Assembly: GCA_029263395.1 (NCBI GenBank)
Contig: JAJCXO010000003.1
Location: 1 to 36,271 of the forward strand
DNA length: 36,271 bases
Direction: 5' to 3'
Source: Acidobacteriota bacterium
GTDB taxonomy: Bacteria > Acidobacteriota > Thermoanaerobaculia > Multivoradales > J023
A program made the position numbers and the translations under genes. Every line of letters starts with the position of its first letter. The first letter of the stretch is position 1. The notes below the pieces were generated by a model. The model saw nothing but the letters and a program-made list of their open reading frames with translations. It was not told where the DNA came from and did not search any database. Below are positions 13,784 through 36,271 of the stretch, piece by piece.

Positions 13784-15810
13784 ATGGCTAAACGGCATCA
13801 GGCGACATGGGGCGACGTGCTCCGGCAGCAGGTGGCCGACCATCGGGACGAGCTCGCCTTCAGTTTTCTGAAGGACGGAGAAGAGGAGCAAGCGGCCTGG
13901 ACCTTCGGTGAGCTCGAAGTCCATGTTCGATCTGCAGCGCAGCGTCTTCAGGCGTTGGGTGATGTGTTCGGGGAACGAGCGTTGCTGCTTTATCCCGCTG
14001 GCCTCGATTTCATCGCGGCGTTTCTCGGCTGTTTAGTCGCTGGGGTCGTGGCGGTGCCGGCCTATCCTCCACGCCGCGTCCGGCCGGGGCGGAGCCACGC
14101 GATCGACGATCGGATCCGGGTCTTGGTGAGGGACGCCGAAGCGCGGATCGTGATGACGAATTCTGCCACGAAGTCGAAACGGGATGCTTTGTCGCTGCGG
14201 ATTCCCGAGCTGGCTTCTACGACCTGGGTCGCAACCGACGACGTCCACGCTGCCGACCCTGAGACCTGGGGTGAGCCGAGTCTGACCGGCGATTCTCTGG
14301 CTTTTCTGCAGTACACCTCGGGCTCGACGGCGGATCCGAAAGGGGTGATGGTCACCCACGCCAACCTCTTGCACAACGAAGAGGTGATCCGCCGCTGTTT
14401 TGCGATGACGGCCGAATCGGTCGTGGTTGGCTGGTTACCGCTTTATCATGACATGGGACTTATCGGTACCGTCCTACAACCCCTCTATGCTGGTGCGCAT
14501 GCGGTTCTAATGTCGCCGCAAGCGTTTCTGCAGCGACCGGTCCGTTGGCTGGCAGCTATTTCCCGCTACCAAGCGACGACCAGCGGTGCTCCGAACTTTG
14601 CCTGGGACCTGTGCACCCAGCGGGTCTCCGAAGAGCAGAAGGCTGAACTCGACCTCTCGTGCTGGAAAGTGGCCTTCAACGGTGCTGAGCCAGTGCGGGC
14701 AGCGACGCTTGAGCGTTTTGCCGCCGCTTTTGCCGTCTGTGGATTTCGTCGTCGAGCTTTCTTCCCTTGTTACGGTTTGGCAGAGTCGACGCTTTTTGTC
14801 AGCGGCGGCTGGCTCGACGAGACCTCGCAGGTCGTCACGCTCGCCACCCGGGAGCTGGAGAAGGGACGGGCGGTGGAAAGTGACGAGGTGGCTGAAGCGT
14901 CGCAGGTGGTGAGCTGCGGTCCGGCCCGCGGAGCCGGCGAGGTAGTGATCGTGGATCCTGTGAGCCGGCGCCAACTACTGTCTGGTCGGGTAGGAGAGAT
15001 TTGGCTCCGTGGGCCGAGCGTCGCGCGCGGCTACTGGGGTCGGAGCGAGCAAGAAGAGGACCCTTTTGGGGCGCGGCTTGCCGATGCGACAGGAAATGAT
15101 CCTTTTCTGCGCACCGGCGATCTTGGATTTCTGCTGAGTAGCGAGTTGTTCGTCACCGGTCGCTTGAAGGACCTTATCATTCTGCGCGGCCGCAATCACT
15201 ACCCTCAGGATCTCGAATTGACGGCCGAGAGCAGCCATCCTGAGCTGCGGCCTGGCTGCAGCGCGGCGTTCGCGGTCGAGGTCGAAGCCGAAGAGCGCCT
15301 GGTGGTTGTGCTCGAGGTTGCGCCCCGCGGCCTGCGTCGTGGTATTGCCTCTGAACTCTGTCGGGAGATCGCCGTTGCGGTGGTTGAACGGCTGGCCGAG
15401 ATTCATGACGTCGCGGCCCACGAGGTCGTGCTGATCGAACCCGGAACGATTCCCAAGACCTCCAGCGGCAAAATCCGTCGTCAGCCTTGCGGTCGAGAGT
15501 ATCGTGCCGGTCGCCTCGCCACCCTCAGTCGCTGGTGTCCGGAGAAGGACATGGCGATTTCTTCAGCGAGAGCACCACGCACCGAAACCGAAAGCCAACT
15601 AGCGGAAATCTGGCGAGAGGTCTTTGGCCGCAACGTGGGCCTCGATGAAAGCTTGTTCGCCCTCGGCGGAGATTCGCTGCGGGCGGCACAGATCCTGGCC
15701 CGTGTTCGAGACCAGTTTGGTATTGAGATCGATTTCGCTGACCTTGCCGATGCTTCGAACATCGGCGAGTTGGCACAGCTCTTGGCTGCCGAGGCGCCGG
15801 CCGAGACCAC
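13784..15810 (+). other. NRPS loading module: fatty acyl-AMP ligase + carrier
   Basis: Residues 1-583 form a FAAL domain: P-loop YTSGSTADPKGV, the family signature WLPLYHDMGLIG, the extra segment around FFPCYGLAESTLFVSGG that blocks CoA use, HYPQD and the C-terminal KTSSGKIRR. It would activate a free fatty acid as acyl-AMP and pass it to the following carrier. The carrier (about residues 600-669) has FALGGDSLRA with S631 as the phosphopantetheine site. Starting a peptide this way marks an N-acylated lipopeptide. Chain length cannot be read from the sequence. Confidence 0.93.
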
Positions 15811-21800: not shown

Positions 21801-24800
21801 CCGAGTTGCGGCGCTGGCTCGCCGAGCGGTTGCCGGACTACATGATCCCCAACACGTTCAGTGTGGTGGCGGAGCTGCCCCTTACCGCCACCGGCAAAAT
21901 TGATCGCCGTGCCCTCAGCCGGCTCGCCACTGGCGAGCGCGACTTACACTCTGGAGAACGAGCTTCGACTGCGGCGCGGACACCGTTAGAGTTGGACTTG
22001 GCTGGGATCTGGTCGGAGGTGCTCGGGGTGGCAAACGTGGGAGTCCACGACAGCTTCTTCGACCTCGGCGGCCACTCGCTTCTCGCCACCCGCATCGTGT
22101 CCCGGGTGCGTTCGGTTTTTGGGGTCGAAGTACCGTTGCGGCAACTCTTCGAGCGTCCTACGGTGGCTGCCTTGGCCGCTGCCGTCACCACGCTGAAGAG
22201 TTCAACCAGTCCCGAAGGCGGAACCTGGTCGGAGCCGATCCGGCCGGTTGACTGTCGGCCCGAAGGCGGCCGCATGCCGGTCGCTTTCGCTCAGCGAAGA
22301 TTGTGGGTACTAGATCGTCTGCAACCCGATTCGGCGGTTTACAACATTCCTCAGGCGGTGGCGATTACAGGGCCGCTGCGGGCGGGGGTGTTGGCCTCTG
22401 CCCTCGCTGAGGTTGTCCGCCGTCACCAGAGCCTACGTACGCACTTCGCGGAAGAGGACGGAGAGCCGGTGCAGGTGATCGTGCCTTCGCTGGTACCGCC
22501 GCTGCCTCAGATCGATTTGTCAGGCCTGGCGTCGGTCGCCCGCCGGGCAGCGTTCGACAGCATCGTGGCACTGCAGGCCGCCCGGCCTTTCAACCTGGCG
22601 ACGGGGCCGCTACTGAACGCCTGGCTGCTCTCGGGCAGCGGGCTTGGGGGCGACGATGAACCGGCAGAGCACGTCCTGTTGCTGGTCGTCCATCACATCG
22701 TATTCGACGGTTGGTCGATGGATCTGCTGGTACGCGAGCTGGCTGAGTTATGTGGCAGTGAGGAGTCGGATGCAGGAGCAAACCTGCCGGAGCTCACGAT
22801 CCAGTATGCTGATTTTGCGTGGTGGCAGCGAGAGACTCTCGATGCCGATCGATTGGCCGCCCAGCTCGAATCCTGGGCGTCGCACCTCGCCGGTGCCCCC
22901 ACCGTGCTCGAGCTGCCCTGCGACCGTCCTCGGCCACCGCTACAGACCACCCGTGGCACCAGCCTGCCCTTCGTCTTGCCTCAGGCTTCCGCGTCGGCGC
23001 TGCGAGCCCTGTGTCGACAGGACGGCACAACGCCTTTCATTTTCCTGCTCGCTGTCTTCGACGTCCTACTCGGGCGATTGACGGGAGCCCGGGACCTGTT
23101 GGTGGGGCTGCCGATCGCCGGTCGTAGCCGCCAGGAGGTCGAGCATCTGATCGGCTTCTTCGTCAACACGTTGGTGTTGCGGGCACAGCTGGTGGATAGG
23201 GTGCCGTTCCGCACCTTGCTGCACGAGGCGCGCGAGACGGCCTTGGCGGCCCACGCCCACCAAGATGTGCCTTTCGAGATGTTGGTCGAGAGAATGAAGC
23301 CGGAGCGGGATCTTTCACGTCCTGCGCTGGTGCAAACAATGTTCGCTCTCCACCCGCGGCCGGCGGCGGTCGAGTCAGGGAATCTGCGCTTCGAGTTGAC
23401 GCCGCTGGCGAGCCAGTCCGCTCGTTTCGACTTGTCTCTGCATCTGTTGGACGACGGCACTTCGTTCAGCGGTTTGATCGAGTACAACAGCGACCTGTTC
23501 GATGCCTCGACGATGAGCCGGTGGCTCGAGCGTTTCGAGCGTTTGGTGAGCGGAGCGGTAGCCAATCCCGATCAACCGTGGCAGGAGCTGCCACTGTTGA
23601 CCGCCAGCGAACGCCGGCAGCTGGTCGTTTGGCAAGTTCCGGCTCCGATCCGCTACCCTGACGTCTGCTTGCAAGACTTGTTTGCGGCTCAGGTCGTGCG
23701 CAGTCCACTGGCCGTGGCGGTGGTCGACGAAAGGGGCGAGCTGAGTTTTGAAGAGCTGGACCGCAGGGCGAGTCGATTGGCGCATCGACTGGTGGCTCTC
23801 GGGGTCGGTGTGGAAAGCCTGGTCGGAGTAGCGATGGAGAGGGCGGCGGAGATGGTGGTGGCCCTGGTGGGCATCCTCAAAGCAGGAGGTGCCTATGTTC
23901 CCCTCGATCCGTCCTATCCCAGTGAGCGACTGGATTTCATGCTGATGGACTCGGGAGTGCAGGTACTTCTGACTCAGAGCTGGCTGGAGCTGGAGGAGCT
24001 GACCAGGTCTGGCGCGACGGTGCTGACGATGGACCCCGGCGCCTTCAGCGAGGAGACCAGCGAAGTCGACGCCGGGTTGATGCCGCGTCCACGTCCTGAG
24101 AATCCGGCCTATGCAATCTACACATCGGGTTCGACCGGGCGGCCAAAAGGGGTTGTGATTCCGCATGCGGGAATCATCAATCGCTTGCTCTGTGTACAGC
24201 AAATATGCGGGCTGGGCGCCACCGACCGGGTGTTGCAGAAGACCCCCTTCAGTTTCGACGTTTCGGTGTGGGAGTTTTTCTGGCCGTTGATGACAGGTGC
24301 GCGCCTGGTCATGGCGCCACCGGAAGCGCACCAGGACCCGGGCCGCCTGGCCGAGTTGATCCAACAGCAGCAGATCACGACTCTGCATTTTGTGCCATCC
24401 ATGCTCCAGGTGTTTCTCGAACAGTCGCAACTGGCGACGCGTTGTGGCTCGGTGCGGCAAGTCATGGCGAGTGGTGAAGCGCTGCCGTTCTCCCTCGAGC
24501 AACGGTTCTTCCAACACTTGCCCGGCGTTGAGCTTCACAATCTGTATGGCCCGACCGAAGCGTCGATCGAGGTTACGTACCATCACTGTCAGCCCGGCAA
24601 TAATCGGCAGATGGTGCCGATCGGACGGCCGATAGCCAACACCGAAACTCACGTCTTGACCGCGATGTTAGAGGTGGCCCCGATCGGTGTGGCTGGCGAG
24701 TTGCTTCTCGGAGGCGTAGGGCTGGCTCGCGGCTACCTTGGGCGGCCAGGTCTTACTGCTGAGCGCTTCGTGCCGCATCCATCGGCGACGCAGGCGGGGG

Positions 24801-27800
24801 CGCGTCTCTACCGGACAGGCGATTTGGCGCGCTGGCAGGCCGCCGGCGAGATCGAGTTTCTGGGGCGGCTGGACTTCCAGGTCAAGGTGCGGGGATTCCG
24901 TATCGAGCTCGGAGAGATCGAAGCAGCTTTGACGTCGCATCCGGAGATCCGGGAAGCGGTGGTGACCCAGCAGGTGGGGCCGAGCGACAGTCGCCTGATA
25001 GCGTACTTCGTTCCTCAGGCCGACGTCGTGCCGGGGATCGGAGCTTTGCGGGCTTATCTAGGAGAGCGACTGCCGGACTACATGATGCCGGCGGTGTTCC
25101 TGTCCCTTCCCGACTTGCCTCTGACCCCCAATGGGAAGGTCGATCGACGGGCCCTGCCGCACCCTGGGACGGCGCGGCCGGAGCTCGAGAGAGAAGCTGT
25201 TCTGCCGCGCAATCCGCTAGAGCAGGCACTCGCCGATGTCTGGTCCCAGGTGCTCGATCTCGAGACGGTCGGCGTCGAGGACAATTTTTTCGAGCTTGGC
25301 GGCGACTCGATTCTGGCCATTCGAATCGCTTCGCGGGCCAACCGGGCCGGCCTGGCTCTGCAGGCGACTCAGCTGTTCACCGTGCAAACTATTCGTGAGC
25401 TTGCTGAGGTTTTGGCTGGCCAGGGTGCTGTCTCGGCGCCGGGCCTGCGGTCCGCGGCTCCGGTCGGTGAGCTTGTCGAGGGCGATCCAGCGAGCCAGGA
25501 GCGCCTAGCCGAGCTCGGGTCTTTCGAAGATGTTTACCCGCTGTCTCCAATGCAGCACGGCATGCTGTCCCAGGCTCTGCTTCAAGTTGGATCCGATCCC
25601 TACCTAAATCAGCTTGTGTTCTTTCTCGAGGAGGCGATTGACCCGGTGCCATTTCGGCGCGCCTTCGAAGCAGCGATCGAGCGTCATGCGATCCTGCGTA
25701 CGGCTTTTGCCTGGGAGGGGCTCGACAGTCCCTTGCAGCTGGTCAGGCCAACCGTGGTGCTCGAGTGGCAGGACCTGGACTGGCGCCGAGCTGGCGCAGT
25801 CGCGGCGGAGGAAACGCTGGAAACATGGTTGCTTGAAGACCATGTGCGCGGTTTCGACTTGTCGCGAGCTCCGTTGATGCGGTGTGCCACGATACGGATC
25901 GACTCTGGGTCCTATTTCGTCTGGACGGTTCACCACCTGTTGCTCGACGCCTGGTCAGTCTCACTCTTGCTCGCGGAGCTGTTCGAGCTTTACTCTGGAT
26001 TGCGTACCGGCGTGTCACCAACACTGGGGCCGGCGCCGGCTTACCGGGACTTTATCGGCTGGCTGCAGCAGCAGAGCAGGAAGCCGGTCGAAACCTTCTG
26101 GCGGCAGGCTTTCGACGAGTTTGAAGGGCCGGCGACGATTGTTCGGGGCTCTTTGGCGGATCGCTCAGGCCAACGCCGGCTGGCGAGCCGGCAGGGCAGC
26201 CTGCAGCGGGCGCCTACGCGGCTTCTGAAGAGTTTTGCCCGCAGCGAGCACCTCACATTGAGTACTCTCGTCCAGGGAGCCTGGTCTTGGCTACTTGCGA
26301 CTTACGGTGGTCGGGAGGATGTGACCTTTGGCGTTGTGACCTCGGGCCGGCCGGCGGATCTCGCTGGTGCGGACTCGATGATCGGCCTGTTCATCAATAC
26401 CTTGGCGACGCGGGTTCGGGCCGATGCCCGGCGAGGGCTGGTGCCCTGGTTGCGTGAGCTCCAGGCGTGGCAGGTCGAAGCTAGGCAGTTCGAGTTCGTA
26501 CCATTGGCGGACGTGCAGCGCTGGAGCGGTGTGCCCGCCAACAGACCGCTCTTCGAGAGCATTGTATCGGTCGAGAACCGAGCGCTTTCGGATGCCACGG
26601 AGGCAGTCCGGGCCAGCCTGCCAGGAGTCCGCCAGGTTTATGGTCTGCAAGGCAGTGACTATCCCTTGAGTGTGGCGGTCACTGAGGACGCGGAGCTGAA
26701 GATCGTCATTCAGCACGAGGTCGAGGTCTTCGATGACATCACCGCGCTGCGCATGCTTGGGCACCTCGAGAATCTCCTCGCGGGTTTCGGCACCGGCTCG
26801 TCCCGGCGCCTCGGCGAGCTGTCGTTGCTCAGCGCAGCGGAGCGTGCGCAGGTGCTGGTCGAGTGGAATGGTGATGCGCGTCCTTGGGACGGCGGGTTGG
26901 TGCCAGGGCTAGTGCTCGAAGTGGCACAGCGGCGTCCCGCGGCCGTGGCGGTAGCGACCGTCGACGGCGTCCTGACCTACGGCGAGCTCGATCGCCGGTC
27001 CAGCCAGCTGGCCGCTCACCTACAGGGACTGGGGGTTGGCCCCGAGGTCCGAGTCGGATTGTGTGTCGACCGCACCTTTGAACTCGCGATCGGCTTGCTA
27101 GGCATCTGGCGTGCTGGCGGCGCCTATCTGCCACTCGACAGCGAGCTGCCGGAGCACCGCTTGCAGTCGATTCTCGAGAGCGCGGAGATAGGCTGTGTGG
27201 TAACGCTCGAGTTGTTGGCCCAGCGACTGCCCCTCGGGGATTTGCGGTCGGTTTTCCTCGATTGGCCGATCGCTCCGCAGAGCACCAACGGGACCCGGTT
27301 GTCGTTGTCGCCGTCCAGCCTGGCTTACACTATTTATACCTCGGGTTCGACGGGTAAGCCGAAAGGGGTTGCGGTCAGTCACGAAGCTCTGGCGAGCTAC
27401 GTCCGGGAAGCGGTTGACCACTTCCGACTGGGACCGGACGATCGCGTCCTGCAGTTTTCACCCCTGTCGTTCAATGTGGTTTTGGAAGAGCTGCTGCCGG
27501 TCTGGCAGGCAGGCGGTGCGGCGGTGCTGGACACCGGCGTGGCCCGCATGGCGCCGCGGCAGCTGGCCGAGCTGATGGCCGCGCAACAGGTCACCGGCCT
27601 GGAGCTGCCGGCGGGTTATTGGCATGAATGGGTCGAGGACCTAGAGCTCACTGGACAGCGGCCGCCGTCCAGCCTTCGTTTTGTGATCCTGGGCTGCGAG
27701 AAACCCAATCCGCAGCGGGTCGCGGCCTGGAGGCAATGGGGTGTCCCGCTGATCAATGTGTTTGGTTTGACCGAAACGACCGTCACCTCGACGTTGTATC

Positions 27801-30800
27801 GCACCGACCGGGGGCCGGCTGACCGGGTGGAGTTGCCGATCGGTCGTCCGATATCAAACAGCCAGGTCTATCTGCTCGACAGCGATGGCTCGCCGGTACC
27901 GGCAGGAATTGTGGGCGAGCTTTTTATCGGTGGAACGGGGGTGGCCCGAGGTTACCAGGGGCAGGCCGCCCTGACGGCGGCGCGTTTCCTACCCGATGGC
28001 TTGAACGGTCGGCGTGGGGCGCGTCTGTATCGCACCGGCGACCTGGCACGATTCGAGAGCGGTGGATTCCTGCAGTATCTTGGTCGGCGTGACCATCAGG
28101 TGAAGGTGAGGGGCTTTCGGGTCGAACTCGGCGAGATCGAGGCGGCGCTGATGGCCCATCCTGCGGTCGGTGAGGCGGTCGCAACTGCCCATGACGACAC
28201 CTCCTCTGGAACCCGCCTGGCAGCCTATGTTACGGCGAGATCCGGTTCCGTGATTCCGCTTTCGGCGCGGGAATTACGACAGTCCCTCGCTGACAGAGTG
28301 CCAGAGTACATGGTGCCAGCGGCGATTACTGTAGTCGTCGCGCTGCCCCGCACCGCTACCGGTAAGGTGGACCGCGACGCGCTGCCGGAGCCGGAGTGGG
28401 GCGGTTCGCAAGATCTCGAGCACGTGGCACCGAGTAACCCGCGAGAGGCCCTGCTGGCCGAGATCTGGTCGGAGGTGTTGGGAGTCGACAAGGTTGGCAC
28501 GGGAGACAGCTTTTTCGAGCTCGGCGGTGACTCGATCCTGAGTATCCAGGTGGTGTCACGACTCCACCGCATGGGTCTAAAGCTGACACCGTGGGATGTG
28601 TTCCAGCACCCGACCGTGGCCGAGCTGGTACCGATGATCGAGGATCTCGAGCCACCCCAGGAGCAGCCTGCAGAGGTCGCGGGCGACGTTCCGCTGACTC
28701 CGGTTCAGCGCTGGTTCTGGGAACAGGCGTTGGAGCGGCCGGCCCATTGGAACCTGCCGTTAATGCTGACCGTTGGCGAACGACTGGTAGCGGCTCCCCT
28801 GGGCAGAACTCTGGCGGCGCTGGTCGAGCATCACGATGCCTTGCGTCTGCGCTACCGGCAGCACGAGGGAGAGTGGCGGCAGACTTATGGTGATGCTGCC
28901 GACGGTTGGCCGCTGGCGGAGGTTGACCTGTCCGCATTGTCCGAGGGCTTGGTCGAGGGTGAGATGCGGCGTTGCAGCCAGGTTGTCCAGGCGAGTCTCG
29001 ACTTGTCGGTGGGGCCATTGGCCAGAGCGGTGCTCTTCCGGCGTAGCCGAGAGGTGACGGATCGCTTGCTGTTGGTGATACACCATCTGGTGGTGGATGG
29101 AGTTTCGTGGCGGATTTTGCTCGAAGACCTCGAGGCCGGATATCGCCATGCCGCGATGGGCAGGCCGCTAGCTCTGCCGGAGAAGACGGCGTCTTTCAAG
29201 GCCTGGTCCGAAGGTCTGGAATCCTACGCAAGCTCGCAGCAGCTGCGCTCCGAGGAAGGTTATTGGGCGGCGGTGGAGCACAGCCCGGTCGCCGAGCTGC
29301 CGTTGGATATTGCTGAAGGGGCCAACATCGAAGGGGCGGTGGAGGTTTTCGAAGCGCAGCTCGACGAGGCCGCGACGCGAGCCCTGTTGCAGCAGGTGCC
29401 AGCAGTCTATCGAACAGAGATCCAAGATCTGCTGCTGGCGGCGCTGGTGGAGAGTTTCGAGAGCTGGACTGGCCAGCGGCATCTGCTGCTGTCACTAGAG
29501 GGGCACGGTCGCGAGCAGGAAGTGGTGCCGGGGGCCGAGCTCACCCGAACCGTCGGCTGGTTCAGCAGCGTTTATCCAGTCTTTTTGGACCTGAGAAACA
29601 CCAGTCGGCCGAGGGAGACGATCCAAGCGATCAAGGAACAGCTGCGAGCGGTACCGCGGCGGGGCATCGGATACGGCCTGCTGCGTTACCTCGCTGACGA
29701 TTCAGCGGTTGCCGCCAGCCAACCTGAGCAGCCGGCGGTGATGTTCAACTACTTCGGCCAGCTCGATCGATCCCTTGCCGGTGACGAGGGTTTCGGTCTC
29801 GCCGAGGAAGACGGTGGCGCCGCGATCGATGCCTGCGCTATGCGACAACCGGTGCTCGAGGTCAACTGCGGTGTCACCGGCGGCCGGCTGAGAGTCGGCT
29901 TCCGCTATAGCCGCCATCTGCACCGCCGGACGACGATCGAGGCGCTGGTGGAGCGTTACCTTTCGAGCCTGCGAGGGTTGCTCACACACTGCCTGTCGCC
30001 GGAGGCCGGCGGCTTGAGTCCGTCTGACTTGCCGTTGGCGGGCCTCGACCAGACTCGCCTCGATCATCTGCTCGAACGCTTCGATCGTCAGCAGATCGAA
30101 GACGTCTACCGTTTGAGCCCGATGCAGCAGGGGATGTTCTTTCACGTCCTCTCAGAGCCTGACCTCGGGCTCTATGTCGGCCGCATGTATGTTGATCTTC
30201 TCGGCCCTCTCGACCGGCAGGCCTTTCGTCTGGCCTGGCGGGACGTTGCCCGCCGTCACCCCTCGTTGCGCATGGCTTTTGTGTGGGAGGACCTCGACGA
30301 GCCACTGCAGGTGGTCCATCGAGAAGTGCCGACCGCCTGGCGAGAACTCGACTGGAGTGGGCTGTCCGGAACCGAACAGGGACGTCGGTTCGAGGCGTTG
30401 CTGCACGACCCGTCAGGGTTCAATTTCGACCTATCGCAGCCACCGCTGACCCGGCTGACCCTGGTCTGTTTGGAAGAGCAAGTCCATCGGCTGGTTTGGG
30501 ACCATCATCAGACAGTGCTGGACGGCTGGAGCCTGCCGATCATCTGGCGAGAGGTTGTAGAGCTTTATCGCGGTCGGGTCCAGGGGGCGGAGATCAAGTT
30601 GCCAGTCGCCACCCCTTACCGTGACTACATCGCCTGGTTGGATCGTCAGGATGACGATGTGGCGCGCGAGTTCTGGCAAGCTGATCTCGCCGGGTTCTCG
30701 CAGCCGACGACAGTCGCTGTCGGGCGCCGCACGTCACAGCTCACCGGCGCTTCGTCTCAGAGCCTGCGTCGAACAGAGTTGGGGCAAGAGCTAACGCAAG

Positions 30801-33800
30801 CTCTCACCTCCCTGGCGCGGGATCGAGGGGTAACGCTCAACGTTCTGATTGTCGGCGCCTGGTCGTTATTGCTGAGCCGTTACACCGACCGCGAAGACGT
30901 GCTCTTCGGGGTCACGATGTCGGGGCGTCCAGGGAATCTCGACGGGGTTGATTCGATCGTTGGGCTTTTCATCAACACACTGCCGTTGCGGATCGCGGCT
31001 CCCGCTCATGAGCGGCTACTGCCCTGGATTTCCTACTTGCAGCGACGGCAGGTCGAGGTCGGCAAGCACCAGCACACGCCGCTGATGCAGATCCAGGGCT
31101 GGAGTGAGCTCGGACGCGGTCGGTCGCTGTTCGAGAGTTTCCTGGTGTTTCAGAATTATCCCACCGGCGAAGGCATAGAGGTGATGGGGCTGCGTCTTGG
31201 CCAGGTGCGCGAGATCGAGCGGGCCAATTATCCGCTGGTGGTGGTCGCGGTGCCTGGTGAGCGGCTGCACCTCGAGATCAGCTTCGACAGCGCGACCATA
31301 GACGGGGTCGCGGTGGGTCGAATGTGTGCCCATTTGCAAAACTTGCTCGGGGGTATGGTGGAGAGCTCGCGAGCCGTCCTGCGCTCGCTGCGGCTGTTGA
31401 GCCGGGCGGAGTGCTGGCAGATGACGGCGGAGTGGAACGGTGGCCCCGCGCTGCCCCAACCAGGACTAGTGCCGCAGTTGCTAGCTGGCGTTGCGCGTAG
31501 TCGGCCGGCGGCAACGGCAGTTGTGGCGGATGGAGAAGAGTTCAGCCACGGTGACCTGGATTCGCGGGTGAGTCGCTTGGCCGCCTACTTGCAAAGCCAG
31601 GGGGTTGGACCCGACGAGCGGGTTGGCCTGTGTGTCGAGCGCACCGTGGATTTGGCGGTGGGCGTGTTGGGGATCTGGCGGGCTGGCGGTGCTTACGTAC
31701 CGCTCGATGCCGGCCTGCCTGAGGTAAGGCTCCAGGCAATGTTGCGAGGGGCGGCGATCCGGGTCGTCGTGACGTTAGGGGCACTGGCTCCAAGCCTGCC
31801 GCTGCAGAGTGAGCGGCTGGTTTGTATGGACGAGGTCGACTGGGACCAGAGCTTCGGTCTGAACGAGCCCGCGCAGGACCCCGCGTCTCTGGCCTACGTC
31901 ATGTACACCTCAGGCTCAACCGGTGAGCCAAAGGGTGTTGCGATCAGCCACGCAGCTCTTGCGAGTTACGCCACTGAGGCCGTGGAACGATTTCGCCTGG
32001 GGCCAGGGGACCGCGTGCTGCAGTTTTCGCCATTGTCATTCAACGTGGTGATGGAGGAGTTGTTGCCGGTCTGGCTGGCTGGCGGTGCCGTGGTGCTAGA
32101 ACGGCAGGTTGACCAGCTGGCACCACGCGATCTCGGCGACCTGATCGCGACGCGTCAAGTCACGGGGTTGGAGCTGCCGGCGGGCTACTGGCACGAATGG
32201 GTTGATGAGCTGGCACATTCCGGCGATCGGCCACCGGCGAGCTTGCGTTTCGTGATCCTGGGTTGCGAGAAGCCGCATCCGGACCGGGTCGCGACGTGGC
32301 TTCCTTGGAAGGTTCCGCTGATCAACATCTTTGGCCTAACCGAGACGTCGATTACCTCGACGCTCTACCGTACCGACGAAGGGCCAGCGGATCGAGTCGA
32401 GCTGCCGATCGGCCGTCCGATTGCCAACAGTCGCGTGTACCTGTTGGCCAGCCAGGGTGAGTTGGTGCCGATGGGAGTAACGGGAGAGCTCTTTATCGGC
32501 GGCATGGGACTAGCTCGCGGCTATCTGGGGCAGCCAGGCTTGACAGCGCAACGTTTTGTTCCCGATCGCCTGAGCAGCGCGCTCGGGGCACGCCTCTATC
32601 GCACCGGGGACTTGGCAAGGTTCGAGCGCGATGGGATCTTGGAGTTCTTGGGCCGTCGCGATCACCAAGTCAAAGTTCGCGGGTTCCGCATCGAGCTGGC
32701 GGAGATCGAGGCCGCCTTGAGGAGCCATCCGGCGGTCGGTGAGGCGGTGGTGGTGGCTCATCACGGCGAAACCTCGGGAGCTCGCCTCGCCGCTTACCTG
32801 GTGCCGCTGAGCACCGGTGCGGAGGAGCTCTCCCAACCAGAGTTGAGGACGTTCCTGGGGCAGATGGTGCCCGACTACATGATTCCGGCAGCCTTGACGG
32901 AGGTGGCGGAGCTGCCGCGTACGGCCACCGGCAAGGTGGACCGAAATGCCCTGCCAGTCCCTGCATGGGGGCGGTCTGAAACGATCGAATACCAGGCGCC
33001 TCGCGACTCGCGTGAAAAACTACTGGCCGAGGTCTGGGCCGAGGTGTTGGGCGTCGATCAGGTGGCCATTGGAGCCAACTTCTTCGAGCTCGGCGGTGAC
33101 TCGATCCTCAGTATCCAGATGGTGTCTCGAGCCCACCGTCGCGGCCTCCGTTTGACCCCTCGGGACATATTCCAGCACCCAACGATCGCCCAGCTGGCGG
33201 TGGTCGCACGAGCTGTCACTGCGGATTCCGCCGTTGACCAGGGACCAGTGGAGGGGTCGGCTGAGTTGACCCCAATACAACACTGGTTCTTCGAGCAGGT
33301 CACTCATCGTCCCGGGCATTGGAACCTGTCGGTTTTCCTGAACGTTAATCAGCATTTGGAGTCCGGCGCCTTAGAGCAGGCACTGGCAGCCTTGGTGATC
33401 CACCACGATGCACTGCGCCTGCGTTTCCCTATGAGTGGCGGCGTCCGCCGCCCGCAGCACGGCGCTGCGCCCGGAGCTTGGCCACTTCTCGTGGTGGACT
33501 GGAGCGGGTTGCCGCCGTCGTCGTCGGATGGGCTGCTGGAAAGCACCGGGACGCAAGTCCAGTCGGCGTTGGATCTCGTGCAGGGACCCCTGGCGCGGGC
33601 GGTGCTCTACCGCACCGCGGCTGGTGACCGGCTGCTGTTGGCGGTTCATCACCTGGTGGTGGATGGGGTGTCCTGGCGGATCCTGCTCGAGGATCTGGAG
33701 ACCGCTTACGGCCAGGTGCTCGCCGGCCGGTCGGTGGAGCTACCGGCCAAGACAACGTCGTTCAAGGCCTGGGCCCAAGGTCTGCAGGCGTACGCCCGCA

Positions 33801-36271
33801 GCGACGAGTCGCGGGCAGAGCTGGCTGTTTGGTACTCGGAGGAGCGATTCGCAGTACCAGGAATTCCGGCGGATCACCCCAACGGCGCCAACACCGAGGG
33901 CTCCGCCGACCGCGTCGAGATTGGTCTCGGGCGGTCCGCTACCAGAGCGCTGCTCGAGGATGTCCCCGCGATCTACCGAACCGAGCTCCAGGACCTGTTG
34001 TTGACAGCGCTGTGTCGAACCGTCGCGGAGTGGACCGGTCAGTCACGGCTGTTGGTTGACCTGGAGAGCCATGGCCGTGAGGAAGAGGTTGTTCCGGGAG
34101 CCGACCTGAGCCGGACCGTGGGTTGGATCTCGACTCTGACGCCGGTGCTGTTGGACCTGGGCTCGGCGGTCGAACTGGGCAATGCCATCAAGGTGGTCAA
34201 GGAGCAAGTACGTTCGGTACCAAAACACGGCATCGGCTACGGCGTGTTGCGCTACCTCGATCCAGAAGGTGGCGAGCGTTTTCGTGAGTTGCCCCAGAGC
34301 GAAGTGATTTTTGAATACATGGGACGCCTCGATCGGGCGCTACCGGAGTCGACGCCGTTCGAGCTGGCTGCGGAATCCGGTGGCCGCGATATCGATCCCG
34401 ACTCAATGCGCCACCATCTGCTCGCAGTGTGGGGCGGAGTGATGGCGGGCGAGCTGCGAATTGCCTGGGGCTATAGTCGCAATCTTTACCGGCGCTCGAC
34501 TGTCGAAAAGCTCGCCAGGCGTTACGTCTCGATTCTCCGAGAGCTTATCCAGCATTGTCTGTCTCCTCAGGCCGGGGGCTTCACACCTTCAGATTTTCCG
34601 TACTCCGGCCTCGACTCGGACAGCCTCGACCGGCTGGTGGCCCAGGTCGGTCGCGAACGGGTCGAGGACGTCTACGCGCTCAGCCCAATGCAGCAGGGCA
34701 TGCTCTTCCACACGTTGTATGAAGAGGGGGCGGGTACCTATGTGAGCCAATTGAGCCTCGAGCTCTCGGGTCCTGTCGATACCCAGGTCGTCGCGCAAGC
34801 CTGGCAATGGGTTGTCGAGCGCCATCCGGTCCTGCGTACCGGCTTCTTCTGGGAAGGTCTAAACGAGCCCGCACAAGTGGTGTTCATCAATCCCGGACTC
34901 GATGTCGATCAGCTGGATTGGCAGGCCTGCTCGTCCGACGAGCGCAACCGACGCCGACACGTCCTGGCTGACCAGTTGCGGGCCGAGCTCGCGCTCGATC
35001 GAGCACCTCTGATGCGGATTACGCTGGTTCGGGTCGAGAAGGATCTGCACCTGATGTTGTGGACCTACCACATGATCCTCTTCGACGGCTGGGCCCAAAC
35101 TCTGATCCTAGACGACGTCTTCCGCAGTTACGCGGCGTTGACCAGCGGGCTGCAACCACCGGTGGCAGCCACTCGCGGCACCTATCGGGATTTCATCGCC
35201 TGGCTCAGTCAGCGCGATCCGGCGGTCAGTCGAGCTTTCTGGCAGGATTACCTCCGAGGTTTCGCGATACCGACGCGGCTGGCGTTGCCGAGGCGGGCGC
35301 AGGCGCCGGAGGATACCCGCCACGGCTCGCTCTCTTCTAGTCTGCCGGCCTCCCTGAGGCTCGCCCTGCAGTCGATAGCGCGTCGCCACCAGGTGACTGC
35401 CAATGTCCTCGCACAAGCTGCCTGGGCGTTGCTGCTCGCTCATTACAGCCGCGAGCAAGACGTCGTCTTCGGCTCCACGGTCTCCGGCCGTCCGCCAGAC
35501 CTCGCCGATGTCGAGTCGATTGTCGGCTTGTTCATCAACACTCTGCCGGTGCGTTCCCGGGTGCCGCTCAGCGGCCAGCTGCGATCGTGGATCTCGAGCC
35601 TGCACCAAGAGCAGGGGGAGATGCGTCAGGTGGAGCACGTGCCGCTGGCCCGCATCCAGCACTGGAGCGACCTGCCGCCAGGGCAGAGCTTGTTCGAGAG
35701 CATCCTGGTCTACCAGAATTTCCCGGCAGAAGACGTTTCTCGGCACGACATCGGACTGACGGTGAGGGCGGTCGACTCCGTCGAGCAAGGCAACTATCCG
35801 ATCGCGTTGACGGTTGCACCGCGGGACCAGTTGGATCTTTACATGTCCTTCGATTCAGGCCGCTTCGAGCCCGCGTTGATCGGCCGTATGATGGACCACT
35901 TCGGCAACCTTCTCCAGGGCCTGGCGGACGGCCTGGAGAGGCCAGTAGGCGCGCTCAGCCTGTTGAGCGACGTCGAGCGCTTCCAGGTGTCGAAAGGTTG
36001 GAACGACAGCGACCAGGACTACGGTGCACCAGCCTGCTTGCCGGATCTGGTGGCCGGGCAGGCGGCTGCCAGCCCCGATAGGGTCGCGGTGGTGATGGAC
36101 GACCAGGCGCTGTCGTATCGGCAGCTAGACCGGCATGCTAATCGGCTAGCCCGCCGACTCCGGTCTGAGTCGGTCGGGCCGGAATCGGTGGTGGCGGTCT
36201 CGCTGCCGCGGTCCTTGGAGCTGGTGGTGGCGCTGCTCGCGGTGCTCAAGGCGGGCGGTGCCTACCTGCCG
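13784..36271 (+). CDS. giant FAAL-initiated non-ribosomal peptide synthetase, 3' end outside window
   Basis: A single uninterrupted frame of 7,496 codons runs off the right edge without a stop. The frame was checked by placing conserved motifs from every module in the same register. It activates a fatty acid and elongates it with at least six amino acids: FAAL-T, three C-A-T modules, two C-A-T-E modules, and a C plus the first 80 residues of an A domain. The ATG at 13784 is the first possible start after an in-frame TAA at 13775; its ribosome binding site is poor, which fits coupling to the radical SAM gene 65 bp upstream. All T domains keep the phosphopantetheine serine. All five complete A domains keep the P-loop and the terminal lysine. 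Chain release is not in view. The product is predicted to be a lipopeptide, fatty acyl-X1-Ala-Ser(like)-D-X4-D-X5-X6; specificity codes were read by hand. Confidence 0.96.
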   Translation, partial: MAKRHQATWGDVLRQQVADHRDELAFSFLKDGEEEQAAWTFGELEVHVRSAAQRLQALGDVFGERALLLYPAGLDFIAAFLGCLVAGVVAVPAYPPRRVRPGRSHAIDDRIRVLVRDAEARIVMTNSATKSKRDALSLRIPELASTTWVATDDVHAADPETWGEPSLTGDSLAFLQYTSGSTADPKGVMVTHANLLHNEEVIRRCFAMTAESVVVGWLPLYHDMGLIGTVLQPLYAGAHAVLMSPQAFLQRPVRWLAAISRYQATTSGAPNFAWDLCTQRVSEEQKAELDLSCWKVAFNGAEPVRAATLERFAAAFAVCGFRRRAFFPCYGLAESTLFVSGGWLDETSQVVTLATRELEKGRAVESDEVAEASQVVSCGPARGAGEVVIVDPVSRRQLLSGRVGEIWLRGPSVARGYWGRSEQEEDPFGARLADATGNDPFLRTGDLGFLLSSELFVTGRLKDLIILRGRNHYPQDLELTAESSHPELRPGCSAAFAVEVEAEERLVVVLEVAPRGLRRGIASELCREIAVAVVERLAEIHDVAAHEVVLIEPGTIPKTSSGKIRRQPCGREYRAGRLATLSRWCPEKDMAISSARAPRTETESQLAEIWREVFGRNVGLDESLFALGGDSLRAAQILARVRDQFGIEIDFADLADASNIGELAQLLAAEAPAETTGLQPPLARVAEDRSLPLSFAQRRLWFLHQLDPANPVYNVAAQARLVGRLAVPALAATLAEIEQRHELLRSVYLAGAEEPTQAIASSGRSLSLVDLEALTESAQRREVKRVTMVVARLAFDLARGPVWRTALLRQHDDLHSLVLSVHHIACDGGSMGIFWREMTALYRSFVAGCPPHQSAPRLRYADYAVWQRSWLTDEVLDSLLNASRQRLGENLPVTELPADRPRPPVLSHRGRCLETMLTGDLVQALDELARSQAATPFMVLLTGFLALLSRYTGQDDLAVGTLVDGRDRVELEQLMGVFPNTVVLRPTASDAFVFVDYLERVRAEIIAAYDLRHLPFEVLVDEVAPERDLSRMPLVQVLFAGLNAPLSRQEIPGLSLIPAEVDTGTSQFDLSVHVAPRDEGWLTTWKVSTDLFDRVTVERWMRHFIAVLRSAVTGPATAVGELELLSAAERHQLVAGWNDSGRGTVEVCLHSLVEDQARRTPNRIAVQDGVRRLTYRVLDRQAGQLASRLARLGVGPDCLVGVALERSVESVLVLLAVLKAGGAYVPLDPSYPRQRLTSMLADCGATVVVTQSRLRGQLPMSSGIEILCLEPDELDHEPAEHPALGRRLSADSSAYAIYTSGSTGRPKGVVISHRGIVSRMLWLQEAYPLRAADRVLQKTPFSFDVSLLEVFWPLASGARLVMAPPGVHRDPNLLAEQIREHEISTLFFVPSLLRVFLEVADLASRCASVRQVMATGEALSSALQQSFHQRLPGVPLDNLYGPTEVSVEATSHACSHQAARGPVPIGRPITGATVQVLDRRMRPVPIGVAGELHLGGVGLARGYLEQPRLTADFFVPDPAAQEPGQRLYRTGDLSRWGVDGEVEFLGRRDHQVKVRGFRIELSEIEAALTVLDEVREVVVVTQTEGAAANRLVAYLVPAAAPGPAVEDLRRILGEQLPEYMVPSVFVSLDALPLTASGKVDRRALPALDTSRPDLGQALVAPRTPVEQQLVDIWSEVLGVEQVGVHDNFFALGGHSLSATRVISAVRAVSGVELPLRLLFQHATVAALATEVAQRMPVGEASASADTAVQPVPRPADGVMPAALAQRRLWFLDQLTPGIALYNLPWTLQITGELDPRLLLRALAEVVRRHEVLRTTFKEEDGEPLQVIGETVAPLVPQVDLSALAVRARRAELDRAVAALTALRFDLSRAPLLRACLFSGLEPESSGQPSELVLALVVHHIVSDGWSMEVLGRELATFCAASTLDPAGASASLPELTIQYADFAAWQRQQLADGLLSEQFEYWRGHLVGAPTVIELPTDHRRPPTRTYRGASLAFRLPDDVTVALRTICRQQGVTPFMFLLAAFDVLLARMTGAEDLLVGTPVANRRRRESETLIGFFVNTVVQRAELAGEPSFSALLGQVRTRSLAAQAHQDVPFEMLVEELSPERDLSRSPLIQVMFALHPRPAMVELGGLRFAAVPVASTAAKFDLSCHLIDGGDALDGIVEYAADLFDATTMARLFERFERVVRSAADDPAKPVSWLDLLSATERHQVFVEWNDTERALDSVGSLPELLESQVGRTSESVAVISGVDHLSYGELSRRSNQLAHYLGSHGVGPESRVGVHVGRSATMLVCLWGILKSGGAYVGLDPSYPPERVEYMLGDADAEVVLTDQPSSLDAMVGSEVHHWGSISTSLSLKSTTSPEVSVDGENLAYLIYTSGSTGRPKGVAITHRSALELVHWALKAYSAPELSAVLGSTSICFDLSVFELFVPLSQGGRVVLVDDALALGESDIGSQCVTLVNTVPSAISELASGLLPPTLRTVNLAGEALSPSLVDRLYAHRQVGAVWNLYGPSEDTTYSTWVRVERGANRVTIGRPVSNTRCYVLDRRHRPTPSGVAGELYLGGRGLARGYLGRPGLTAAHFVPDAFGGVPDARLYRTGDLARLRHDGELEFLGRIDHQVKVRGYRIEPGEIEATLELHDRVHECAVVVSEDPMESGRQLMAWIVSPEEPVTAAELRRWLAERLPDYMIPNTFSVVAELPLTATGKIDRRALSRLATGERDLHSGERASTAARTPLELDLAGIWSEVLGVANVGVHDSFFDLGGHSLLATRIVSRVRSVFGVEVPLRQLFERPTVAALAAAVTTLKSSTSPEGGTWSEPIRPVDCRPEGGRMPVAFAQRRLWVLDRLQPDSAVYNIPQAVAITGPLRAGVLASALAEVVRRHQSLRTHFAEEDGEPVQVIVPSLVPPLPQIDLSGLASVARRAAFDSIVALQAARPFNLATGPLLNAWLLSGSGLGGDDEPAEHVLLLVVHHIVFDGWSMDLLVRELAELCGSEESDAGANLPELTIQYADFAWWQRETLDADRLAAQLESWASHLAGAPTVLELPCDRPRPPLQTTRGTSLPFVLPQASASALRALCRQDGTTPFIFLLAVFDVLLGRLTGARDLLVGLPIAGRSRQEVEHLIGFFVNTLVLRAQLVDRVPFRTLLHEARETALAAHAHQDVPFEMLVERMKPERDLSRPALVQTMFALHPRPAAVESGNLRFELTPLASQSARFDLSLHLLDDGTSFSGLIEYNSDLFDASTMSRWLERFERLVSGAVANPDQPWQELPLLTASERRQLVVWQVPAPIRYPDVCLQDLFAAQVVRSPLAVAVVDERGELSFEELDRRASRLAHRLVALGVGVESLVGVAMERAAEMVVALVGILKAGGAYVPLDPSYPSERLDFMLMDSGVQVLLTQSWLELEELTRSGATVLTMDPGAFSEETSEVDAGLMPRPRPENPAYAIYTSGSTGRPKGVVIPHAGIINRLLCVQQICGLGATDRVLQKTPFSFDVSVWEFFWPLMTGARLVMAPPEAHQDPGRLAELIQQQQITTLHFVPSMLQVFLEQSQLATRCGSVRQVMASGEALPFSLEQRFFQHLPGVELHNLYGPTEASIEVTYHHCQPGNNRQMVPIGRPIANTETHVLTAMLEVAPIGVAGELLLGGVGLARGYLGRPGLTAERFVPHPSATQAGARLYRTGDLARWQAAGEIEFLGRLDFQVKVRGFRIELGEIEAALTSHPEIREAVVTQQVGPSDSRLIAYFVPQADVVPGIGALRAYLGERLPDYMMPAVFLSLPDLPLTPNGKVDRRALPHPGTARPELEREAVLPRNPLEQALADVWSQVLDLETVGVEDNFFELGGDSILAIRIASRANRAGLALQATQLFTVQTIRELAEVLAGQGAVSAPGLRSAAPVGELVEGDPASQERLAELGSFEDVYPLSPMQHGMLSQALLQVGSDPYLNQLVFFLEEAIDPVPFRRAFEAAIERHAILRTAFAWEGLDSPLQLVRPTVVLEWQDLDWRRAGAVAAEETLETWLLEDHVRGFDLSRAPLMRCATIRIDSGSYFVWTVHHLLLDAWSVSLLLAELFELYSGLRTGVSPTLGPAPAYRDFIGWLQQQSRKPVETFWRQAFDEFEGPATIVRGSLADRSGQRRLASRQGSLQRAPTRLLKSFARSEHLTLSTLVQGAWSWLLATYGGREDVTFGVVTSGRPADLAGADSMIGLFINTLATRVRADARRGLVPWLRELQAWQVEARQFEFVPLADVQRWSGVPANRPLFESIVSVENRALSDATEAVRASLPGVRQVYGLQGSDYPLSVAVTEDAELKIVIQHEVEVFDDITALRMLGHLENLLAGFGTGSSRRLGELSLLSAAERAQVLVEWNGDARPWDGGLVPGLVLEVAQRRPAAVAVATVDGVLTYGELDRRSSQLAAHLQGLGVGPEVRVGLCVDRTFELAIGLLGIWRAGGAYLPLDSELPEHRLQSILESAEIGCVVTLELLAQRLPLGDLRSVFLDWPIAPQSTNGTRLSLSPSSLAYTIYTSGSTGKPKGVAVSHEALASYVREAVDHFRLGPDDRVLQFSPLSFNVVLEELLPVWQAGGAAVLDTGVARMAPRQLAELMAAQQVTGLELPAGYWHEWVEDLELTGQRPPSSLRFVILGCEKPNPQRVAAWRQWGVPLINVFGLTETTVTSTLYRTDRGPADRVELPIGRPISNSQVYLLDSDGSPVPAGIVGELFIGGTGVARGYQGQAALTAARFLPDGLNGRRGARLYRTGDLARFESGGFLQYLGRRDHQVKVRGFRVELGEIEAALMAHPAVGEAVATAHDDTSSGTRLAAYVTARSGSVIPLSARELRQSLADRVPEYMVPAAITVVVALPRTATGKVDRDALPEPEWGGSQDLEHVAPSNPREALLAEIWSEVLGVDKVGTGDSFFELGGDSILSIQVVSRLHRMGLKLTPWDVFQHPTVAELVPMIEDLEPPQEQPAEVAGDVPLTPVQRWFWEQALERPAHWNLPLMLTVGERLVAAPLGRTLAALVEHHDALRLRYRQHEGEWRQTYGDAADGWPLAEVDLSALSEGLVEGEMRRCSQVVQASLDLSVGPLARAVLFRRSREVTDRLLLVIHHLVVDGVSWRILLEDLEAGYRHAAMGRPLALPEKTASFKAWSEGLESYASSQQLRSEEGYWAAVEHSPVAELPLDIAEGANIEGAVEVFEAQLDEAATRALLQQVPAVYRTEIQDLLLAALVESFESWTGQRHLLLSLEGHGREQEVVPGAELTRTVGWFSSVYPVFLDLRNTSRPRETIQAIKEQLRAVPRRGIGYGLLRYLADDSAVAASQPEQPAVMFNYFGQLDRSLAGDEGFGLAEEDGGAAIDACAMRQPVLEVNCGVTGGRLRVGFRYSRHLHRRTTIEALVERYLSSLRGLLTHCLSPEAGGLSPSDLPLAGLDQTRLDHLLERFDRQQIEDVYRLSPMQQGMFFHVLSEPDLGLYVGRMYVDLLGPLDRQAFRLAWRDVARRHPSLRMAFVWEDLDEPLQVVHREVPTAWRELDWSGLSGTEQGRRFEALLHDPSGFNFDLSQPPLTRLTLVCLEEQVHRLVWDHHQTVLDGWSLPIIWREVVELYRGRVQGAEIKLPVATPYRDYIAWLDRQDDDVAREFWQADLAGFSQPTTVAVGRRTSQLTGASSQSLRRTELGQELTQALTSLARDRGVTLNVLIVGAWSLLLSRYTDREDVLFGVTMSGRPGNLDGVDSIVGLFINTLPLRIAAPAHERLLPWISYLQRRQVEVGKHQHTPLMQIQGWSELGRGRSLFESFLVFQNYPTGEGIEVMGLRLGQVREIERANYPLVVVAVPGERLHLEISFDSATIDGVAVGRMCAHLQNLLGGMVESSRAVLRSLRLLSRAECWQMTAEWNGGPALPQPGLVPQLLAGVARSRPAATAVVADGEEFSHGDLDSRVSRLAAYLQSQGVGPDERVGLCVERTVDLAVGVLGIWRAGGAYVPLDAGLPEVRLQAMLRGAAIRVVVTLGALAPSLPLQSERLVCMDEVDWDQSFGLNEPAQDPASLAYVMYTSGSTGEPKGVAISHAALASYATEAVERFRLGPGDRVLQFSPLSFNVVMEELLPVWLAGGAVVLERQVDQLAPRDLGDLIATRQVTGLELPAGYWHEWVDELAHSGDRPPASLRFVILGCEKPHPDRVATWLPWKVPLINIFGLTETSITSTLYRTDEGPADRVELPIGRPIANSRVYLLASQGELVPMGVTGELFIGGMGLARGYLGQPGLTAQRFVPDRLSSALGARLYRTGDLARFERDGILEFLGRRDHQVKVRGFRIELAEIEAALRSHPAVGEAVVVAHHGETSGARLAAYLVPLSTGAEELSQPELRTFLGQMVPDYMIPAALTEVAELPRTATGKVDRNALPVPAWGRSETIEYQAPRDSREKLLAEVWAEVLGVDQVAIGANFFELGGDSILSIQMVSRAHRRGLRLTPRDIFQHPTIAQLAVVARAVTADSAVDQGPVEGSAELTPIQHWFFEQVTHRPGHWNLSVFLNVNQHLESGALEQALAALVIHHDALRLRFPMSGGVRRPQHGAAPGAWPLLVVDWSGLPPSSSDGLLESTGTQVQSALDLVQGPLARAVLYRTAAGDRLLLAVHHLVVDGVSWRILLEDLETAYGQVLAGRSVELPAKTTSFKAWAQGLQAYARSDESRAELAVWYSEERFAVPGIPADHPNGANTEGSADRVEIGLGRSATRALLEDVPAIYRTELQDLLLTALCRTVAEWTGQSRLLVDLESHGREEEVVPGADLSRTVGWISTLTPVLLDLGSAVELGNAIKVVKEQVRSVPKHGIGYGVLRYLDPEGGERFRELPQSEVIFEYMGRLDRALPESTPFELAAESGGRDIDPDSMRHHLLAVWGGVMAGELRIAWGYSRNLYRRSTVEKLARRYVSILRELIQHCLSPQAGGFTPSDFPYSGLDSDSLDRLVAQVGRERVEDVYALSPMQQGMLFHTLYEEGAGTYVSQLSLELSGPVDTQVVAQAWQWVVERHPVLRTGFFWEGLNEPAQVVFINPGLDVDQLDWQACSSDERNRRRHVLADQLRAELALDRAPLMRITLVRVEKDLHLMLWTYHMILFDGWAQTLILDDVFRSYAALTSGLQPPVAATRGTYRDFIAWLSQRDPAVSRAFWQDYLRGFAIPTRLALPRRAQAPEDTRHGSLSSSLPASLRLALQSIARRHQVTANVLAQAAWALLLAHYSREQDVVFGSTVSGRPPDLADVESIVGLFINTLPVRSRVPLSGQLRSWISSLHQEQGEMRQVEHVPLARIQHWSDLPPGQSLFESILVYQNFPAEDVSRHDIGLTVRAVDSVEQGNYPIALTVAPRDQLDLYMSFDSGRFEPALIGRMMDHFGNLLQGLADGLERPVGALSLLSDVERFQVSKGWNDSDQDYGAPACLPDLVAGQAAASPDRVAVVMDDQALSYRQLDRHANRLARRLRSESVGPESVVAVSLPRSLELVVALLAVLKAGGAYLP
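15844..18980 (+). other. NRPS module 1: C1-A1-T1
   Basis: C1 (about residues 690-1116) begins LPLSFAQRRLWFL and has intact HHIACDG (H822, H823); as the first C it joins the fatty acyl chain to residue 1. A1 (about 1146-1645) has FDVSLLE with D1344 at the amino-binding position. The pocket code read by hand is D-V-L-F-M-T-L-V-E. Its backbone resembles serine-type A domains but W, H and S are replaced by L, F and T, so I cannot name the substrate. T1 has FALGGHSLSA with S1695. Confidence 0.88.
19040..22200 (+). other. NRPS module 2: C2-A2(Ala)-T2
   Basis: C2 has intact HHIVSDG (first His at residue 1898) and the ordinary L-type opening ALAQRRLWFL. A2 (about residues 2227-2711) gives the pocket code D-L-F-N-N-A-L-T-Y with the conserved Lys (LTATGKIDR), which equals the published alanine code as I remember it; D2421 is the amino-binding Asp. 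T2 has FDLGGHSLLA with S2765. L-alanine incorporation is the best specificity call in this synthetase. Confidence 0.88.
22270..25435 (+). other. NRPS module 3: C3-A3(Ser-like)-T3
   Basis: C3 opens AFAQRRLWVL and has intact HHIVFDG (first His at residue 2970). A3 (about 3293-3791) has D3492 and a hand-read code D-V-W-H-M-S-L-I-E, close to the serine code of EntF (D-V-W-H-F-S-L-V-D), so serine or a near relative is likely. T3 carries FELGGDSILA (S3842). The GGDSI form is usual for carriers that serve an epimerase, yet no E domain follows. Confidence 0.85.
25530..30025 (+). other. NRPS module 4: C4-A4(Asn pocket)-T4-E4
   Basis: C4 opens YPLSPMQHGML, the style of D-accepting C domains, and has HHLLLDA (H4050, H4051; final Gly is Ala). 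A4 (about 4368-4869) has Asn4564 where nearly all amino-acid-activating domains have Asp; the hand-read code is N-V-E-E-I-G-V-V-T. Two Glu in the pocket suggest a basic or amino-bearing side chain. T4 has FELGGDSILS (S4917). E4 (about 4969-5413) keeps HHLVVDGVSWRILLEDL (H5100, H5101), EGHGRE and NYFGQ, so it should epimerise residue 4. Confidence 0.88.
30095..34590 (+). other. NRPS module 5: C5(HQ variant)-A5(Asn pocket)-T5-E5
   Basis: C5 opens YRLSPMQQGMFF. Its active-site motif is HQTVLDG, so the second His is Gln (H5575, Q5576). A5 (about 5895-6391) has Asn6087 at the amino-binding position and code N-V-E-E-I-G-I-I-T, almost the same as A4, so residues 4 and 5 are probably the same compound. 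T5 has GGDSILS (S6440). E5 (about 6492-6934) has HHLVVDGVSW from H6622, ESHGRE and YMGRLD. DNA similarity to module 4 is clear but not recent: synonymous sites differ widely. Confidence 0.88.
34660..36271 (+). other. NRPS module 6: C6(HM variant)-A6 (truncated by window)
   Basis: C6 (about residues 6959-7386) opens YALSPMQQGMLF, as expected after an epimerase. Its motif reads HMILFDG, so the second His is Met (H7096, M7097). A6 begins near residue 7415 and is cut at the window edge just after its first core motif, LKAGGAYLP, before any pocket residue can be read. Confidence 0.85.

Follow-up and report, generated by a model that had tools for sequence, protein, structure and literature searches.

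The question raised by this locus is what is activated by two successive adenylation (A) domains that carry Asn at the position where domains for alpha-amino acids hold the alpha-amino group with Asp235. Both domains (A4 and A5) belong to a nonribosomal peptide synthetase (NRPS) of an Acidobacteriota bacterium, encoded on contig JAJCXO010000003.1 of a 10.68 Mb draft genome (assembly GCA_029263395.1, 96% complete); the contig, whose whole length of 36271 bases is called the window here, ends inside the NRPS. A4 and A5 are best described as the Asn235-bearing branch of a class of adenylation domains of the arginine type, and they sit in a cassette that recurs and has an unusual condensation (C) domain; as far as arginine is concerned, our confidence is about even.

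Both A4 and A5 read SFNVV, and their pocket codes, obtained via alignment to the GrsA stretch (an exact match to residues 233-339 of 1amu), are the near-identical NVEEIGVVT and NVEEIGIIT, so that the residues (N4564 and N6087) and pockets given by the initial annotation are reproduced exactly. Since the two domains are 70% identical (with no long repeats between them) and use different Asn codons, and since Asn also occurs in three additional domains from other genomes, G018 with two and G031 with one, neither chance nor a sequencing error accounts for it. It is also rare: in 79 named-genome loci among the matches listed, 0/215 A domains carry it (209 Asp, 3 Ser, 3 Val; the five window domains are excluded and a few loci overlap), while a second detection in the same loci, likewise among the matches listed, gave 0/234 (222 Asp, 3 Ser, 3 Val, 1 Ala and 5 gapped), although these loci are no random sample, having been picked for likeness to the window. 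Phylum-wide, the Asn pattern matched in 115 of 396 genomes, with no site within an A domain in 30 loci among the matches listed. Within the order, the sixth of six pattern matches (G018:C198:4994) was dropped, because it lies outside both A domains found on its contig. Despite the missing Asp235, A4 and A5 still pass the TIGR01733 model, and their A3, A5, A7 (YRTGD) and A10 (TGKVDR) motifs are present. The initial annotation had allowed for another Asp filling the role of residue 235; by sequence there is none.

A4 and A5 are members of a small class of A domains (the VEE class) with the signature [DN]VEE[LI]G[VI][VI]T for the pocket plus FGLTET for the A5 motif. At least 29 members occur in 5 of the 148 genomes of the taxonomic class, of which 24 among those found carry Asp and 5 Asn (145-position profile from an alignment of eleven members, E <= 1e-40; a lower bound, since at most 27 candidates were scored per genome and G018 had 223). 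Asp235 relatives with the same FGLTET are found in the same order (G010, G018, G026 and G031), and contig C269 of the genome itself encodes another NRPS with three DVEELG[VI][VI]T domains. V236, E239, E278, G301 and T331 are common to the 24 Asp and 5 Asn members, and changes at 299, 322 and 330 are conservative, apart from one Cys at 330; across the pocket stretch of these members, 235 alone divides the two sets cleanly. In a whole-domain alignment of 19 members (5 Asn, 14 Asp), Asn and Asp members are told apart by a single pocket column, that of residue 235, the sole other Asn-specific column being one Val near the C-terminal end. A compensating acid was looked for as well, but no column combines an acid in at least 4 of the 5 Asn members with an acid frequency of 40% or less among the 14 with Asp; a linker position in the pocket stretch that has no GrsA number is acidic in 5/5 Asn and 13/24 Asp members, and is taken as background. 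When 23 of the 29 members were placed in a maximum-likelihood tree together with 6 outgroup rows (pocket columns left in), the Asn domains fell into two groups, i.e. the window pair and the G018/G031 trio, which were united in 0/200 bootstrap trees. A single Asn clade is not rejected (p-AU 0.064), but Asn probably arose twice. With one origin or two, it has been conserved along long branches, which argues against decay.

What, then, is the substrate? We would give about even credence to the reading that A4 and A5 are D235N domains for arginine or a guanidino relative, which is afterwards epimerised. An arginine-type alpha-amino acid is suggested by the published codes, the match to ApnA A1 in both sequence and structure, the low score as an aryl-acid domain (see below) and a precedent for Val at position 235. 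The published arginine consensus is D-[AV]-E-D-[IVL]-G-A-[VI]-[TD] (PMC12283262), and the arginine codes given with ApnA A1 are mostly DVED or DVES-IG, with A, V or G at 322 and E or A at 331 (PMC5311044); the side-chain part of these codes (A/V236, E239, an acid or Ser at 278, G301) is present in both domains as V236, E239, E278 and G301. By sequence, the best single-domain PDB chain for A4 is ApnA A1 (339.5 bits; a short query had no PDB match at 1e-15), which also comes first by Foldseek for the A4 model (mean pLDDT 85.1) and by VIA (Z 45.0, root-mean-square deviation 3.5, 438 aligned). As to the missing Asp, a solved domain that binds Phe carries Val at the 235 position, which means that Asp235 is not strictly needed; Val is known there in McyG (PMC11253843). 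The initial annotation took the Asn itself as a sign of an unusual side chain, which is doubtful, since the remaining code positions are the same or conservatively changed in Asp and Asn members and resemble the published arginine codes.

Several points weigh against arginine. To our knowledge, no product is known for any member of the class, and a carbamoyltransferase gene next to the NRPS is a hint of a ureido residue. The consensus has Asp278 and Ala322, from which both domains depart with Glu278, A4 with Val322 and A5 with Ile322. The serine domain Txo1 ties with ApnA A1 by VIA (Z 44.3), which means that arginine cannot be read from the fold match by itself, and multi-domain chains outscore ApnA A1 in total, namely 8xjz (410.3 bits) and those of LgrA (256 bits for the best LgrA domain). 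Finally, no alpha-amino-acid domain with Asn235 was found in the literature searched (part of PMC11253843 among it), in which DVEELGV[IV], DVEEIGV[IV], DVEELG and NVEELG were also without a relevant match, the one match being an unrelated venom paper.

If the arginine reading is right, the substrate of A4 and A5 alike would be a guanidino-bearing L-alpha-amino acid (most simply L-arginine). Glu239 and Glu278 would hold the head of its side chain, and backbone carbonyls together with the amide oxygen of the Asn would hold its alpha-amino group in place of an Asp carboxylate. The residue would then be loaded on the carrier (T) domain, converted to the D form by the epimerase (E) domain of the same module, and passed on by a C domain with Gln (C5) or Met (C6) in place of the second active-site His. 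That both modules end in epimerases, as initially annotated, is borne out: E4 and E5 have HHxxxDG and an EGHGRE-type motif, and score above the TIGR01720 cut-off.

The C domains that follow gave an unexpected result. A-T-E-C cassettes of this A class recur in tandem, in agreement with the repeated block of the initial annotation, and Asp and Asn members are alike in this respect; to judge from the sequences, the cassette seems to travel as a unit. By the second His of HHxxxDG, neither C5 (HQTVLDG) nor C6 (HMILFDG) is canonical. Among 147 C domains (longer than 300 residues and with the donor in the same open reading frame (ORF); profile-split domains were dropped), this His is lost in 21/21 that follow a VEE-class A domain plus E domain (20 Gln, 1 Met), compared with 26/26 in which it is kept after other A plus E donors (25 HH, 1 SH), which gives a Fisher p of 8e-14 for rows that are related and not independent. 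The altered domains comprise C5 and C6 as well as those in L161, L162, L164, L165, L166, L167, L032, L033 and L034. Without an E domain the His was lost in 0/1 after a VEE-class donor (one module in G026, reading HH) and in 2/99 after other donors. Two split C domains that were re-examined agree with the table of 147 (HQ after VEE plus E, HH after another E), and outside it HQ was seen once in G010, without a donor in view, and once in the named locus L116, with no E domain or donor in view. In a quick tree the Gln and Met C domains form one group (SH-aLRT 94), which also contains one His row of unknown donor. As these C domains form one group and the rows are related, the linkage with the second His may be a matter of cassette inheritance. 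A further idea is that the guanidino or ureido side chain of the cassette's donor replaces a role of the lost His, with Asn235 as a repeatedly evolved switch admitting an altered alpha position (an alpha-hydroxy or N-modified guanidino acid), which is fairly improbable.

Within the E domains of VEE-class modules, a separate variation is seen: 18 of 22 have T, N or A, not G, after HHxxxD (L032, L161, L162, L164, L165, L166, L167, L033 and L034), while E4 and E5 keep DG. Module 3 of the NRPS (25295-25561) has an E-type carrier motif, LGGDS, and the next C domain clusters with those that come after E domains, although there is no E domain in between; the E domain of this module may have been lost.

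The carbamoyltransferase beside the NRPS supplies the main rival, in which this enzyme would make a ureido amino acid (for example carbamoyl-2,4-diaminobutyrate, citrulline or ureidoalanine) for activation by A4 and A5. It resembles ornithine carbamoyltransferase (OTC), but stays below the cut-off of TIGR00658 (246.8 against 280.85 bits) and has HDLP for HCLP, whereas the true OTC of the genome is encoded elsewhere and scores 438.1. With 60-65% identity to four other copies and 29% to the true OTC, it represents a distinct subfamily, whose motifs HDLPAVRG and TRWxTMG recur in four copies aligned. At E <= 1e-90 the subfamily is present in 4 of 148 genomes, being 3 of the 5 with the VEE class and 1 of the 143 without (Fisher p 7e-5), an association that is confounded with NRPS richness. 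In 4 of 5 places it lies near NRPS, dioxygenase or diamino-acid genes (3 of 5 when NRPS or diamino-acid genes alone are counted). The second copy in the same genome lies with a diaminobutyrate transaminase (619.3 > 552.2) and an aspartate kinase (TIGR00657, 292.4 > 208.7), together with a cupin/JmjC protein and a KedN5-like radical S-adenosylmethionine (SAM) protein below its cut-off (293.4 vs 700); the G026 copy lies beside a TauD dioxygenase, as does that of G011, whose surroundings further include an NRPS and a gene of the ornithine cyclodeaminase family. It is because of these neighbourhoods that a ureido acid stays the main rival. On the other hand, the A class is present in G010 and G031 (82% complete, and an Asn genome), where even the best matches to the enzyme (36% and 31%) are not close. 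Conversely, the enzyme is present in G011, in which no domain reached the threshold for the A class. Around the G018 copy, ten ORFs were scanned and none is biosynthetic, and a ureido residue could be loaded by A6 or by later modules past the contig end. The carbamoyltransferase hint of the initial annotation thus receives some support for the A class, but not for the Asn itself, and we regard a ureido substrate as unlikely, though to be taken seriously.

Other rivals concern position 235 more directly. Being the alpha-amino ligand elsewhere and the sole pocket position that splits Asn from Asp members, it could be the switch by which a substrate with an arginine-like side chain and an altered alpha position (alpha-hydroxy or N-modified) is accepted. 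Known alpha-hydroxy-acid domains do replace Asp235, but with Ala or Gly and not Asn in the cases reviewed (PMC11253843), and a Streptomyces tendae relative has Ser235 in the similar pocket SAEEVGVAT. This A domain (WP_150157711.1, 44.7% identical) is the best-ranked relative on plasmid records, and its cluster contains a capreomycidine synthase, a TauD dioxygenase and a D-2-hydroxyacid dehydrogenase. The intact E motifs of both modules, however, fit an alpha-amide, and an altered alpha position is improbable. It could also be that loss of the usual alpha-amino ligand simply lowers activity, leaving A4 and A5 weak or idle and their carriers loaded in trans by another domain. Against this stand the motifs that both domains retain and the five divergent domains, probably of two origins, in which the Asn has been kept, so that idle domains appear decidedly improbable. 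Aryl-acid domains of the DhbE kind, which the initial annotation mentioned for Asn at this place, come to mind because Asn235 of DhbE contacts the 2-hydroxyl of dihydroxybenzoate (PMC11253843). A link to such domains is not supported: A4 passes TIGR01733 and has only 119.2 bits for TIGR02275 (DHB_AMP_lig), against a cut-off of 723.55, while for A5 TIGR02275 is not among the 25 best families listed; moreover, the A5 motif FGLTET is not of the aryl type, the remainder of the pocket is common to sisters that carry Asp, and A4 and A5 sit in C-A-T-E modules within the chain. An aryl acid is therefore hardly credible.

The features are collected in Table 1. The other pocket codes of the NRPS, by GrsA alignment, are DVLFMTLVE (A1), DLFNNALTY (A2) and DVWHMSLIE (A3). 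Upstream, the P-methyltransferase label for the radical SAM protein is doubtful; as to phosphinate chemistry, no TIGR02320 (phosphoenolpyruvate mutase) match was found at E <= 0.001 in its own genome (a draft, 96% complete). Cobalamin radical SAM enzymes of the broad class can C-methylate, as in the case of norcoronamic acid, which involves another member (PMC7277169). The gene was also rejected as a partner of Asn235, TIGR04479 (E <= 1e-90) occurring in 7 of 71 genomes of the order, but in neither G018 nor G031. Further upstream (4424-6280), a 618-residue protein without a Pfam family has a weak match to the C-terminal part of VioB (32.8 bits).

Table 1. Coordinates of the NRPS, its domains and related genes (window positions unless a locus is given)
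Feature	Position	Strand	Details
OTC-like carbamoyltransferase, distinct subfamily (HDLP, ATRWQTMG); candidate ureido-acid supplier	10670..11692	-	under ornithine carbamoyltransferase cut-offs
B12-binding radical SAM protein, PhpK/BcpD family TIGR04479; candidate methyltransferase	11982..13718	+	616.9 > 600
NRPS ORF: FAAL-ACP, C-A1-T, C-A2-T, C-A3-T, C4-A4-T-E, C5-A5-T-E, C6-A6	13784..36271	+	7496 residues; A6 cut by contig end
C4, before A4	25526..26971 (ends approximate)	+	HHLLLDA 25931-25951
A4, NVEEIGVVT	26984..28402	+	Asn codon AAT 27473-27475 (N4564); GrsA alignment; TIGR01733 404.5 > 317.4
T4	28520..28552	+	carrier motif LGGDSILSIQV
E4	28685..30097	+	HHLVVDGVSW 29081-29110; EGHGRE 29498-29515; TIGR01720 136.1 > 74.2
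C5	30098..31525	+	HQTVLDG 30506-30526 replaces HHxxxDG
A5, NVEEIGIIT	31553..32971	+	Asn codon AAC 32042-32044 (N6087); GrsA alignment; TIGR01733 414.0 > 317.4
T5	33089..33121	+	carrier motif LGGDSILSIQM
E5	33257..34663	+	HHLVVDGVSW 33647-33676; ESHGRE 34064-34081; TIGR01720 142.1 > 74.2
C6	34664..36100 (end approximate)	+	HMILFDG 35069-35089 replaces HHxxxDG
Other carbamoyltransferase copies	L176 2142-3107; L210 11142-12074; L212 1033-1962; L216 9841-10779		
Streptomyces tendae NRPS protein	L206 9383-12751 (NZ_CP043960.1)		SAEEVGVAT

Predictions that rely on codes take Asp235 of alpha-amino-acid domains as all but invariant, and may therefore misassign or discard arginine-type domains that have Asn. 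The Asp and Asn members make up a natural series whose pockets differ at one position, which offers a clean test of the role of residue 235. The loss of the second His that is linked with them in the following C domain is directly relevant to the function of this His (PMC11546977).

Compared with known systems, A4 and A5 share the pocket, the A5 motif and mostly tandem C-A-T-E modules with their class sisters (G010, G018, G026, G031 and C269); the sisters in question differ by Asp at 235, and the G026 member by having no E domain. ApnA A1 of the anabaenopeptin synthetase (arginine/tyrosine; PDB 4d4g, 4d4h, 4d4i, 4d56 and 4d57) shares Val236, Glu239, Ile299 and Gly301, whereas A4 and A5 have Asn for Asp235, Glu for Asp/Ser278, Thr for Ala/Glu331, and the FGLTET A5 motif. 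DhbE and EntE have the same Asn at 235, but neither the family score nor the A5 motif nor the other pocket residues agree (PMC11253843). The S. tendae domain likewise combines Glu239 and Glu278 with an uncharged residue at 235, but this residue is Ser and not Asn, and the C domain that comes after the A domain reads HHLIFDG, with no E domain detected in the protein. As for the altered C domains, the string HQxxxDG was not found together with a condensation domain in the literature searched, in which the C domain of streptothricin ORF18 is printed as HQxxxDM (part of PMC11546977); given ORF18, we make no claim that the Gln variant is absent from print. The ORF18 domain also has Gln for the second His and a basic donor, beta-lysine, but it belongs to a C-PCP (peptidyl carrier protein) protein of beta-lysine chemistry, whereas C5 and C6 follow an E domain (PMC11546977).

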